From NCBI GenBank assembly GCA_021783215.1, contig JAJXUB010000004.1, positions 1-55,916 of the forward strand: a DNA stretch of 55,916 bases, written 5' to 3'. This document shows, piece after piece, positions 51,519 to 55,916 of this stretch; within the stretch, counting starts at the first letter, position 1, and each line of letters opens with the position of its first letter. Made by a program: the position numbers and the translations under genes. The notes under the pieces are model-generated. The model was not told where the DNA came from and did no database searches. It worked only from the letters and a program-made list of their open reading frames with translations. This DNA is from Actinomycetes bacterium. Its GTDB lineage: Bacteria > Actinomycetota > Actinomycetes > Actinomycetales > Dermatophilaceae.

Positions 51519-51596
51519 GGACCTCGCAACAGCCCGGGGGAGGGGCTCCATTCCGCGGCAGGTCGGCCCGGGGCACGACGCGGCGACGCATGGGCC

Positions 51597-51638
51597 GTCG
51601 ATCTTGCGGCAAACGACCGACCCAGCCGCAAGATCGAC
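51597..51638. promoter_or_regulatory. 14-bp dyad operator upstream of kamD
   Basis: GTCGATCTTGCGGC (51597-51610) and GCCGCAAGATCGAC (51625-51638) form a perfect inverted repeat with a 14-nt spacer. The right arm contains the motif shared with the kamA/kdd region and overlaps the expected -35 of the kamD promoter. No T-run follows, so a regulator site is more likely than a terminator. Confidence 0.65.
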
Positions 51639-51649
51639 AGTCGTATTGG

Positions 51650-51655
51650 TATTCT
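51650..51655 (+). promoter_or_regulatory. kamD -10 element (leaderless)
   Basis: TATTCT, 6 nt before the GTG at 51662. No ribosome-binding site is present, so transcription probably begins at or next to the start codon. Confidence 0.55.
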
Positions 51656-51661
51656 GCAGGT

Positions 51662-53260
51662 GTGTCTGCGCGTCCCACTGGTCTGCTCGAACTCGATCCC
51701 GCCGTCGTCCGCCAGGCCAGGGCCCTGTCCCGTCGTGTCGGCAGGCCGGTCGTCAACATCGCCCGGAGCCATACGACGGTCTCCGTCGAGCGGGCGACGC
51801 TCCGGCTCGCCGGCCTGTCCGGTGCCGACCACGACCAGGTGCCCTGGGTCAACCACCTCGTCGACGCGGTTCGCGCCGACGTCGGCCTCGAGCACGGCGT
51901 CACCTCGCCTGTGTGGAACGCGCTCCGCCAGGGGGAGGCTGCGGATCTGCTGACCCTCGCGCAGAAGGCCGCCGCCGGCGCCGTGACGTTCCACCTCCCC
52001 GAGGGTCGCGGGGCCGGAGCCACCCAGCGGGCCGCGCGGGCCGCGGTGGCGCGTGGCATACGGGCCATCGACCGACAGCGGGCGACCCGGCAGCGGCTCA
52101 TCGCACGCTACGGGGACCCCGCGCGGAAGCCGTGGGTCTACCTCATCGTCGCAACGGGCGACATCATGGAGGACATCCCGCAGGCGCAGGCGGCCGCGCG
52201 TGAGGGCGCCGACATCATCGCCGTCATCCGCAGCACGGGCCAGTCCCTCCTCGACTACGTCCCCGAGGGCGCGACCCGCGAGGGCTTCGCCGGCACGTAT
52301 GCCACGCAGGAGAACTTCAGGCTCATGCGCGCCGCCCTCGACGAGACGAGCAAGGAGCTCGGGCGCTACATCCGCCTGACGAACTACGCGAGCGGTCTCT
52401 GTATGCCGGAGATCGCCGCCCTCGCCGGTCTCGAGCGGCTCGACATGATGCTCAACGACTCGATGTACGGCATCCTCTTCCGCGACATCAACCCCGTGCG
52501 GACCTTCGTCGACCAGCGGTTCTCCCGGCAGATCCACGCTCGCGCCGGCATCATCATCAACACGGGCGAGGACAACTACCTGACGACGGCCGACCCCGTC
52601 GAGGCCGCGCACACGGTGACCGTGAGCCAGCTGCTCAACGAGTACTTCGCCAAGGAGGCGGGGCTGGAGGACTGGCAGCTCGGACTCGGGCACGCCTTCG
52701 AGATCAACCCCGACATCCCCGACAGCTTCCGGCTCGAGCTCGCCCACGCCCTGCTCGCCCGAGCGCTCTTCCCCAACGCGCCGCTGAAGTGGATGCCCCC
52801 GACCAAGCACATGACCGGCGACGTCTTCAGGGGCTACCTGCTCGACGGCTTCTTCAACCTCGTCGGCGCCCTGACCGGACAGAGCATCCTCCTCGTCGGG
52901 ATGATGACGGAGGCCGTCGTGACACCGTGGCTCTCCGACCGGGACCTGGCCCTCCAGAACGTCCGGTACGTCATGAACGCCGCCGGGGGACTCACCGAGG
53001 ACTTCCACCCGCCACGCGACGGGCTCATCCAGACCCGCGCCCGCCAGGTCCTCGGCGAGGCGGTCGACCTGCTGACGCGGATCCTCGGCGATGCGGACAA
53101 CGCCAAGGACGCCCCACTGCTCGCCGCCATCGGCGACGGCACCTTCGGCCTCATGAAGCGGCCCCCCACCGCGGGAAAGGGCCTGGACGGCGTCGCGACC
53201 AAGGCCCCGGACTACGTCAACCCGGCGATCGACCTCCTGCAGGAAGGAGCGAGCCGATGA
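51662..53260 (+). CDS. kamD: beta-lysine/D-lysine 5,6-aminomutase, alpha subunit
   Basis: A 532-residue subunit of the adenosylcobalamin- and PLP-dependent mutase that moves the terminal amino group of beta-lysine to carbon 5. Segments conserved in the family include TNYASGLCMPEIAALAGLER, LNDSMYGILFRDINP and KWMPPTKHMTGD. The chain forms a TIM barrel that closes over the cobalamin in KamE. GTG 51662 gives MSARPTGLLELDP as N-terminus, of normal family length. The stop overlaps kamE. Confidence 0.95.
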   Translation: MSARPTGLLELDPAVVRQARALSRRVGRPVVNIARSHTTVSVERATLRLAGLSGADHDQVPWVNHLVDAVRADVGLEHGVTSPVWNALRQGEAADLLTLAQKAAAGAVTFHLPEGRGAGATQRAARAAVARGIRAIDRQRATRQRLIARYGDPARKPWVYLIVATGDIMEDIPQAQAAAREGADIIAVIRSTGQSLLDYVPEGATREGFAGTYATQENFRLMRAALDETSKELGRYIRLTNYASGLCMPEIAALAGLERLDMMLNDSMYGILFRDINPVRTFVDQRFSRQIHARAGIIINTGEDNYLTTADPVEAAHTVTVSQLLNEYFAKEAGLEDWQLGLGHAFEINPDIPDSFRLELAHALLARALFPNAPLKWMPPTKHMTGDVFRGYLLDGFFNLVGALTGQSILLVGMMTEAVVTPWLSDRDLALQNVRYVMNAAGGLTEDFHPPRDGLIQTRARQVLGEAVDLLTRILGDADNAKDAPLLAAIGDGTFGLMKRPPTAGKGLDGVATKAPDYVNPAIDLLQEGASR

Positions 53261-54081
53261 CACCACGGAACAAGGACGACGCGGTCCGTCGTCGCGAGCC
53301 CGCCGTCCCCGGGGAGCCGAGCCTCACCGAGTCCGGCCCGCTGGTGCGGCCCTACGGGGACCGGACCGGCGACGGCATGATGCAGATGTCGTTCACGCTC
53401 CCGCTGCCGCATGACAAGCGGGCCGAGGGGGCAGCCCTCCAGCTGGCCCGGAAGATGGGCCTCGACCCGGCGATCCTCGTGCACGCCAAGGCGATGGGGC
53501 CCCACTTCACGTTCTTCGTCGTCTACGGGTCGGTCACCCACCTCGTCGACCTTCGCGACGTGGCGGTCGTCCGCAGGGCCTACCCCCTGCTCTCCCACAA
53601 GGACGTCAGCTCGGCCGTCCGGCGCCGGCTCCGGCGCCGGATGGTCGTCGTCGGGGCGTGCATCGGGACGGACGCGCATACGGTCGGGATCGACGCAATC
53701 CTCAACATCAAGGGGTTCTCGGGGGAGAAGGGGCTGGAGTCCTACCCCGAGCTGCGGGTCGTCAACCTCGGCGCCCAGGTCCTCGTCCCGGACCTCGTCG
53801 AGCGGGCGCGGCGCGAGAAGGCGGACGCCGTCCTCGTCAGCCAGGTCGTCACCCAGCGGGAGGCGCACATCCACAACACGAAGGCGATGACGGCGGCGTT
53901 CCGTGAGGCATACCCTGCCGGGAAGGTGCCACTCCTCGTCGTCGGCGGACCCCGGTTCGAGGACGGTACCGAGACCGAGCTCGGTGTGGACCGGATCTTC
54001 GGACGCGGGACGACACCGGATGAGGTTGCCAGCTACCTGGTCCACGCGATCTGCCCGCTGCCCGAGGAGGCCAGCCGATGA
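53257..54081 (+). CDS. kamE: beta-lysine/D-lysine 5,6-aminomutase, beta subunit
   Basis: A 274-residue cobalamin- and PLP-binding subunit. The DxHxxG motif is D139-A-H141-T-V-G, with His141 as cobalt ligand. Lys152 in NIKGF is the presumed PLP Schiff-base lysine; the 11-residue spacing between them is the same as in the clostridial enzyme. An N-terminal dimerisation segment precedes these. AGGAAGGAG stands before the ATG, which overlaps kamD as ATGA. Confidence 0.96.
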   Translation: MTPRNKDDAVRRREPAVPGEPSLTESGPLVRPYGDRTGDGMMQMSFTLPLPHDKRAEGAALQLARKMGLDPAILVHAKAMGPHFTFFVVYGSVTHLVDLRDVAVVRRAYPLLSHKDVSSAVRRRLRRRMVVVGACIGTDAHTVGIDAILNIKGFSGEKGLESYPELRVVNLGAQVLVPDLVERARREKADAVLVSQVVTQREAHIHNTKAMTAAFREAYPAGKVPLLVVGGPRFEDGTETELGVDRIFGRGTTPDEVASYLVHAICPLPEEASR

Positions 54082-54473
54082 CGACGACGCCCGAGGCCGG
54101 CCTGACGGTGACCCACCGTCGCTACGTCCCCTACTCGCACGCTCACTACGCGGGAAACCTCGTCGACGGGGCCTACTCCCTCGCGGCGTTCGGTGACGTC
54201 GCCACCGAGATGTGCATCCGGACCGACGGGGACGAAGGGCTCTTCGCGAGCTACTCGGACGTGCAGTTCAGGGCCCCGGTCCGAGCGGGAGACGTCATCG
54301 AGATCGAGGCGCGGCTCGTCCGGGTCGGCAGCCGGAGCCGCGAGATGGACTTCGTGGTCAGGGTCGTCGGCCGGGGGGCTCCCGAGCGTGGCGAGAGCGC
54401 CGCAGACCTCCTCGAACCGGCCATTCTCGCCACGACCGCCCGCGGAGTGGTCGTCGTCCCCGCACGGGGCTGA
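54078..54473 (+). CDS. kal: 3-aminobutyryl-CoA ammonia-lyase
   Basis: A 131-residue hotdog-fold enzyme that releases ammonia from 3-aminobutyryl-CoA to give crotonyl-CoA, the last step of the aminomutase route. The family motif is SHAHYAGNLVDGAYSLAAFG followed by DVATEMCIRTDGDEGLFASY. Overlaps kamE by 4 nt. The preceding enzyme of the pathway, Kce, is absent from this operon. Confidence 0.92.
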   Translation: MTTTPEAGLTVTHRRYVPYSHAHYAGNLVDGAYSLAAFGDVATEMCIRTDGDEGLFASYSDVQFRAPVRAGDVIEIEARLVRVGSRSREMDFVVRVVGRGAPERGESAADLLEPAILATTARGVVVVPARG

Positions 54474-54522
54474 CCGCTGCGCGAGACGCCCGGCGAGTCT
54501 GTCGCCGACACGCCGAACGGGT

Positions 54523-54574
54523 TTGCTCAGGCTCGGTCCCTTGACTACGTTCGTCGACATAACGACCTGAGCGA
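54523..54574. other. hairpin downstream of kal
   Basis: GCTCAGG (54525-54531) pairs with CCTGAGC (54566-54572); one wobble and one Watson-Crick pair extend it outward. A small CGTT/AACG stem lies within. Could be the kal terminator or part of a larger RNA with the next element. Confidence 0.45.
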
Positions 54575-54584
54575 TCACGGTCGA

Positions 54585-54667
54585 CCAGAGCCCGCGCGCC
54601 AAGTAGAAAACACCCGTGGATCCTTGTGATTCACGACGGGTGGCCCCAACGGCGACGCGGGCTCTGG
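54585..54667. other. candidate structured RNA or complex terminator between kal and lnt
   Basis: Outer stem: 54585-54600 pairs with 54651-54667 (16 bp, one bulged A at 54655). A 10/8-nt internal loop follows, A-rich on the left side. Inner hairpin: 54611-54622 pairs with 54628-54642 (12 bp including one G-T, with a 3-nt bulge 54634-54636) and a 5-nt loop. The element ends 18 nt before the lnt -10, so it is not in a leaderless lnt mRNA. Strand and function are undetermined. Confidence 0.55.
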
Positions 54668-54685
54668 TGTTCCCGGCGCGTGGCC

Positions 54686-54691
54686 TACAGT
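54686..54691 (+). promoter_or_regulatory. lnt -10 element (leaderless)
   Basis: TACAGT, 6 nt before the GTG at 54698; no ribosome-binding site. Confidence 0.55.
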
Positions 54692-54697
54692 GCCCTG

Positions 54698-55916
54698 GTG
54701 ACCACGCGACGGGAAGCCGGGAGCCGGCGGCTGGTGCCCCTCGCACGTCTCGTCCTGGCGGTCGGGGGAGGGTACCTGGTCGGTCTCGCCTTCCCCGGCG
54801 CGAACCTCTGGTGGGCCGCCCCGCTCGGTGTCGCCCTCCTCGGCCTCGCCGGCTGGCGAGCGCGTCCGGCTAACGGCCTCGTGGCCGGTCTCGGCGCCGG
54901 GCTGGCCTACTTCGCGCCGGTCCTCTCATGGGCCGGGACGTACGTCGGCGACCTTCCCTGGCTCGCCCTGGCGACCGTCGAGTCCCTCTACGTGGCCGTC
55001 ATGGTGTGGCTCACGGTCCTCATCCAGCGGCCCCTGATCGCAGCGGGCCGCAACGGCCTCGCCTGGGCGGTCGTCCCGCTCGGCTGGGTCGTCGAGGAGC
55101 TGGCCAGGTCGACGACCCCCTACGGGGGCTTCCCGTGGGCCCGGCTCGCGTTCTCCCAGGCGGACAGCCCACTCGCTCGCGTCGCGGCGTATGCCGGTGC
55201 GCCGGGCGTGACCTTCGCCGTCGCCCTCGTCGGGACCCTCCTCGCCGGCGCCGTGGTCGCCCTGGCCGGCCGACGTCCCACCGGTGCCATCCCCCTGGTT
55301 GCCGCCGTCGCCGTCGTCGTCCTCGCCGGCCTCATCTGGCTCCCGACGGGTGGGCGACCGGTCACCGTGGCCCTCGTCCAAGGGAACGTCCCACAAGCGG
55401 GCCTCGCGTTCAACGCCCAGCGCCGCGCGGTCCTCGACGACCACGTGCGTGAGACCCTGGCCCTGGCGGCCCACCGGCCGGCCGATCTCGCCCTCGTCGT
55501 GTGGCCGGAGAACGCGAGCGACATCGACCCCATCGCGAACGCGGACGCCGCCGCGGAGATCCGCAAGGTCGTCACGGCCATCAAGGTCCCGCTGCTGCTC
55601 GGCGCGGTCATCGACGGCCCGGGACGGTACCTGAGCAACACCTCGCTCCTGTACCGGACGCCGACCTCGACGCCGGAACGCTACGTCAAGCAGCATCCCG
55701 TGCCGTTCGCCGAGTACATCCCGGACCGGTCCTTCTTCCGCCGGTTCAGCGACAAGGTCGACCTCGTCAGACGCGACTTCATCGCCGGAGGCTCCCGCGG
55801 AGAGTTCCACCTCACCGGACCTGCCGGCCCGTTCACCGTCGTCCCGACGATCTGCTTCGAGATCGCCTATGACGGGCTCGTCCGAGACGAGGTGACCCAC
55901 GCCGGTCCCGACCCGT
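54698..55916 (+). CDS. lnt: apolipoprotein N-acyltransferase (3' end beyond window)
   Basis: The first 406 codons of a membrane enzyme that N-acylates the lipoprotein Cys. About seven membrane helices are followed by a carbon-nitrogen hydrolase domain with the catalytic triad Glu271 (VVWPENAS), Lys331 (YVKQHPVPFAEY) and Cys386 (PTICFEIAY). In actinobacteria Lnt is often fused or adjacent to a polyprenol-phosphate-mannose synthase; that part is outside the window. GTG 54698 follows TACAGT by 6 nt. Confidence 0.93.
   Translation, partial: MTTRREAGSRRLVPLARLVLAVGGGYLVGLAFPGANLWWAAPLGVALLGLAGWRARPANGLVAGLGAGLAYFAPVLSWAGTYVGDLPWLALATVESLYVAVMVWLTVLIQRPLIAAGRNGLAWAVVPLGWVVEELARSTTPYGGFPWARLAFSQADSPLARVAAYAGAPGVTFAVALVGTLLAGAVVALAGRRPTGAIPLVAAVAVVVLAGLIWLPTGGRPVTVALVQGNVPQAGLAFNAQRRAVLDDHVRETLALAAHRPADLALVVWPENASDIDPIANADAAAEIRKVVTAIKVPLLLGAVIDGPGRYLSNTSLLYRTPTSTPERYVKQHPVPFAEYIPDRSFFRRFSDKVDLVRRDFIAGGSRGEFHLTGPAGPFTVVPTICFEIAYDGLVRDEVTHAGPDP

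Follow-up and report, generated by a model that had tools for sequence, protein, structure and literature searches.

The 224-nt gap between the genes kal and lnt of the window (the whole stretch of 55,916 nt analyzed here) contains, at 54584-54668, a conserved RNA hairpin of the + strand whose two stems covary around a fixed internal loop, which usually occurs once per genome, and behind which lnt has a separate promoter. From the sequence comparisons that follow, we consider the element to be probably, though not certainly, a stand-alone small RNA gene; it would belong to an undescribed family that is spread through the Actinomycetota and has this two-level hairpin as its constant domain.

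The gap extends from the kal stop codon at 54473 to the GTG start codon of lnt at 54698. The upstream gene, kal (54078-54473, + strand; NCBIfam NF052388 equivalog, E 1.5e-55), encodes 3-aminobutyryl-CoA ammonia lyase and lies outside the RNA; the downstream gene, lnt (54698-55916, + strand; TIGR00546 equivalog, E 3.6e-47), encodes apolipoprotein N-acyltransferase and is cut by the window end. NCBIfam models identify the two genes 5' of kal as lysine 5,6-aminomutase subunits. With kal, these alpha and beta subunit genes make up a cluster for lysine fermentation at 51590-54473, here in an actinobacterium. The adjacency of kal and lnt is kept in many relatives.

The segment 54584-54670 folds with a minimum free energy of -51.7 kcal/mol, compared to -29.9 +/- 3.2 in dinucleotide shuffles (z -6.8; none of 200 as good). 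The fold reproduces the shape that had been described in an earlier note on this DNA, a nested and bulged hairpin with an outer stem, an A-rich loop, a 12-bp inner stem, a 3-nt bulge and a 5-nt loop. The outer stem consists of 17 bp, in which 54584-54600 pair with 54649-54668, with a single 1-nt bulge at 54655 and two extra weak pairs inside it. An A-rich internal loop separates it from the inner stem, in which 12 bp are formed between 54611-54622 and 54628-54642, with the 3-nt bulge at 54635-54637 and the 5-nt loop at 54623-54627. The reverse strand of the hairpin is equally stable on folding (z -7.1), so that fold stability alone does not give the strand of the RNA. The entire gap folds with a z of -3.8. 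The separate 9-bp hairpin that the earlier note had seen upstream is likewise present, at 54523-54574 (z -3.6); because it overlaps a candidate promoter, it may function as a dyad in the DNA and not belong to the RNA.

Searched at the nucleotide level against 58 genomes, the 224-nt gap returned only chance matches besides the window itself; the family becomes visible only when kal-lnt gaps are compared with the flanking genes as anchors. Relatives were assembled as 80 named loci collected via kal, and both lnt and kal were searched in the 58 related genomes. The best kal matches are from Pedococcus, Phycicoccus, Tetrasphaera, and Knoellia, which places the window in the Intrasporangiaceae/Dermatophilaceae group. 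In close relatives the distance from kal to lnt is commonly close to zero, about 400-520 nt, or larger still. Gaps of 400-520 nt carry, right in front of lnt, a hairpin that is built alike but from other stem sequences. The same core is also found outside the window's group, in loci of Nocardioides, Kribbella, Micromonospora, Catellatospora, and Actinomadura. In alignments of family members the internal-loop core reads AGUAGANAAC on its 5' strand and GGNCCNAANG on its 3' strand; members were first gathered by the motif AGTAGANAAC, a selection that accounts for part of the invariance of that stretch, and model matches with ACUAGACAAC or CGUAGACAAC in its place exist. The window copy is a CAAC, short-form variant, and its conserved loop strands in the A1 and A4 alignments are AGUAGAAAAC (5' strand, 54602-54611, + strand) and GGCCCCAACGG (3' strand, 54642-54652, + strand). 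The inner hairpin (54611-54642, + strand) differs in length and sequence by species while its pairing is retained.

Both stems covary strongly, and the lack of compensatory changes among relatives that the earlier note had named as grounds for abandoning the element is not what the alignments contain. The sequences were split into two groups by the pairing register of the outer stem, a division that favors the percentage paired in that stem: 90.4% of cells are paired in the first register (n = 23 sequences) and 87.1% in the second (n = 13). Sorting alone does not explain the two-sided changes inside each group, which occur in 14 of 19 and 15 of 18 pairs, respectively. The covariation score is 0.554 in the group of 23, compared to 0.252 when shuffled and at most 0.15 with the partner slid, and 0.692 in the group of 13, compared to 0.248 and at most 0.18; relatedness is corrected for by the slid control, not by the shuffle control. 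The pairs also indicate the strand. G-U pairs outnumber A-C mismatches by 68 to 13 in the first group and by 24 to 9 in the second, and since G-U would turn into A-C on the other strand, the conserved RNA is that of the + strand.

The window copy was recovered by a covariance model that had not seen it. R2, made from 61 sequences with the window copy left out, matches 54586-54667 with 55.1 bits (E 2.8e-8), the sole match in its own 2.28-Mb genome, and the constant internal loop between covarying stems is thus present in the window as in the family. At E<=0.01, model R1 matches 147 of the 297 genomes, or about half, sampled from the class, a large one to which the antibiotic-producing actinomycetes belong, usually with one copy each; these include all listed genomes of one large-genome genus (g59, 6-11 Mb), which by size and context we infer to be Streptomyces-like. 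R2 matches 69 of 396 genomes sampled from the phylum, some of them in lineages outside the class, and 21 of 36 genomes of the window's own family have a match at E<=0.01. Several complete genomes in which kal and lnt abut have no RNA copy anywhere, indicating that the RNA can be lost. Two matches per genome are seen in G356, G377, G392, G406, G436, G444, and G451, mostly of family f97, the second being shorter and lower in score. An R1 match in G011 (E 0.13) looks like coding sequence and was set aside as fortuitous. Carriage by phages is not supported: a loose motif pattern yielded 120 viral-contig stretches, from which 80 loci were kept, and of these none passes R1 (E<=1, 705 kb), which supports the specificity of the model.

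In many relatives the RNA appears to be a transcription unit of its own. A TTGACA-N16-TANNTT promoter is found at recurring offsets from the core, about -200 in long forms and about -88 and -57 in short forms, and the predicted transcript, starting from this promoter and closed by the hairpin, would be about 95-260 nt long. The shortest forms would be little more than the hairpin, about 95 nt, as their predicted start sits at the base of the outer stem. In the Streptomyces-like and Micromonospora loci, conservation spans the whole predicted transcript (about 230-260 nt), a folded 5' domain precedes the hairpin, and the promoter spacer is nearer 19. This 5' domain (L152 and related loci) is about 150 nt long, highly conserved and has a closing helix; it is missing in the window copy. 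At the other end, a T-run or T-rich segment adjoins the outer stem in two lower-GC members, L170 and L171, which makes the hairpin the likely end of the transcript.

Many relatives also have a dyad, TGACCTGC-N16-GCAGGTCA, preceding the -35. An exact search for TGACCTGC-N13-17-GCAGGTCA found it in 15 of 58 relatives, mostly at the small-RNA locus only, compared to one match for a reversed-pattern control. Being present in part of the family, the dyad is optional and hence not a defining feature. In the form (G)CTGACCTGCG-N14-CGCAGGTCAG, about 8 bp 5' of the -35, it is close to unique per genome (loci L109, L111, L113, L114, L121, L016, L048, L061, and L152); rare copies away from the locus (G035:C1:243902, G050:C168:7693, and G040:C11:725326) may mark further targets or the gene of the regulator itself, or may be fortuitous. 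For the relatives, these motifs strongly suggest a dedicated sigma-70-type promoter with an upstream dyad resembling a regulator's site.

The corresponding sequences in the window are poorer. By its position and by comparison with the TTGACA-N16-TANNTT of relatives, the candidate small-RNA promoter is TTGCTC (54523-54528), N17, TACGTT (54546-54551) on the + strand; its -35 is weak, whereas a TTGACA-type promoter is clear in many relatives. Transcription is predicted to start near 54558, giving a short form of about 110 nt (about 54558-54668). An exact search for TGACCTGC-N16-GCAGGTCA found no occurrence in the whole genome of the window. Expression of the window copy could accordingly be weak, or the copy could be in decay, although both stems are preserved. 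A stronger version of this idea is that the family is real and the window copy a decayed relic that is no longer transcribed. The absence of the dyad and the 5' domain, the weakness of the best promoter, and the existence of several genomes in the window's family without any copy are consistent with such decay. On the other hand, both stems are fully paired with sequences unlike those of the relatives, the loop core is intact, the blind model gives 55 bits, and short forms without the 5' domain but with good promoters occur in the family. We regard a relic as a minor but not negligible prospect.

The position of the element relative to its neighbors bears on the remaining alternatives. The RNA is located between an amidohydrolase or kal gene and lnt or ppm, with strand and gene order alike in nearly all loci. 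This constant place on the same strand, just 5' of lnt or ppm, is the best remaining argument for a role in cis and leaves room for a main rival to the small RNA gene, namely that the element is a 5' leader of lnt/ppm (an attenuator or riboswitch-like) whose outer stem acts as a terminator under control of the internal loop. The T-run of L170 and L171 gives the outer stem the capacity of a terminator, and ligand-binding RNAs typically combine conserved internal loops with helices that vary. However, lnt seems to be transcribed from behind the hairpin. Its -10 hexamer, TACAGT (54686-54691, + strand), follows the TANNNT-N6/7-GTG arrangement seen before lnt in relatives; a TANNNT hexamer stands 6 or 7 bases 5' of the lnt GTG in 22 of 22 relatives checked, five with the RNA and 17 without it between kal and lnt. 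Since the hexamer is kept with and without the RNA, the lnt promoter is independent of the RNA and 3' of it, in agreement with the earlier note, which had put the element upstream of the lnt promoter. Throughout the group lnt looks leaderless, and its -35 region falls within the hairpin or within kal (54686-54700 and relatives). Distance also argues against a leader: in deeper lineages the core and lnt are separated by about 850 nt, a gene-sized gap, and in Micromonospora an extra GC hairpin followed by TTT lies between the RNA and lnt. Moreover, around the RNA copies of L165, L170, and L171, neither lnt nor ppm was detected within about 1.5 kb. (The neighbor in L170 is a phytoene-desaturase-like gene and that in L165 an EfeU iron permease gene.) On balance, a leader is unlikely.

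The earlier note had left two options, the 3' end of kal or an independent small RNA, and it is the latter that the comparison favors. An origin as the upstream gene's terminator or processed 3' end, persisting as a stable 3' UTR fragment, would fit the window in that the element is directly 3' of kal on the same strand and has a terminator-like outer stem. Yet the upstream gene varies by lineage (kal, amidohydrolase, or a GlmL/MutL-family gene) while the RNA is retained, the outer stem in the window is followed by no U-tract, and kal in relatives has a palindrome of its own, CGGCGTGTCG..CGACACGCCG, with a promoter between it and the element. A weak palindrome after kal in the window, GGCGaGTC..GACaCGCC (54491-54515, + strand; fold -12.1 kcal/mol, z -1.8), is apparently a relic of that palindrome, as judged from L016, L018, L020, and L023. 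A kal 3' end is thus improbable. Least probable by far is a DNA-level or mobile repeat, such as a REP- or MITE-like palindrome; the element is palindromic and intergenic, but it is single-copy in its own genome, it is inherited in vertical synteny, and its covariation is strand-specific, with G-U pairs.

If the element is a small RNA gene, as we favor, the alignments point to the part that would do the work. The loop is fixed, the stems are free to change so long as they pair, and the apical hairpin is variable, suggesting that the working part is the internal loop and not base-pairing by the apical loop. The GAAG variant has AGUA opposite GAA between C-G and G-C pairs, which we take to be the bulged-G (loop-E) arrangement; the CAAC variant, including the window copy, departs from this canonical module. 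We envisage a transcript that ends with the outer stem, which would form and protect its 3' end, and in which the loop-E-like internal loop, held between two interchangeable stems, would offer a conserved partner a rigid site to bind. Loop-E modules usually contact protein or RNA; on that basis the partner would most likely be a protein and the RNA would act in trans, which is our leading proposal for the mechanism, plausible though somewhat short of an even chance. A broader and more speculative possibility, doubtful as a whole, is that the window copy represents, in reduced form, a new and deep-rooted class of regulatory RNAs in actinobacteria, switched by a dedicated transcription factor via a near-unique operator and acting through its loop-E core on a conserved cellular partner. 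If this were true, it would be a usually single-copy regulatory RNA on the scale of 6S or Ms1 RNA. Few RNAs are known across the Actinomycetota. In this family the structure is strongly conserved, a promoter is predicted and a regulator site is proposed, and every listed genome of the Streptomyces-like genus has a copy. The novelty would lie in the family itself; stand-alone structured small RNAs are not an unusual kind of gene.

The earlier note recognized no RNA family in the element, and database searches agree. At gathering scores, Rfam 15 has no match in the element region of the window or in sets of 8 and 20 related loci, and permissive searches gave nothing relevant to the element; a che1 match of 16.9 bits (gathering 54.1), mostly inside kal, was put down to chance. 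No description of the locus was found in the open-access papers searched, which are a partial set of the literature, so that a mention in a Streptomyces small-RNA table is possible.

Several known RNAs nevertheless resemble the element in one respect or another. The local AGUA opposite GAA is shared between the GAAG variant and loop-E/bulged-G modules (sarcin-ricin loop, 5S rRNA loop E); the likeness is confined to this motif, and the window's CAAC variant departs from it. 6S RNA is likewise a long hairpin with a central internal loop, but the loop here is small and fixed in sequence, the shortest forms are about 95 nt, and RF00013 (6S RNA) has no match in the window element or the related loci. 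The Lnt RNA motif of Weinberg and colleagues is also a conserved RNA 5' of an lnt gene; it was described from a different phylum, the Chlorobi, as probably cis-regulatory (PMC2864571), and its model, RF01711, does not match the window element even with E allowed up to 10. The best-known RNA of such breadth in the phylum is Ms1, and the two are alike in being stand-alone structured RNAs that are widespread in Actinobacteria and have a single locus with conserved gene neighbors. Ms1 (Mycobacterium; scr3559 in Streptomyces) adjoins a HAD-IB hydrolase gene (PMC9130861), whereas the flanking genes here are kal and lnt, and in relatives amidohydrolase or kal and lnt or ppm. By description and gene context the present family is set apart from Ms1, and it differs further in what is constant in it, namely a short two-level hairpin whose internal loop is fixed in sequence.
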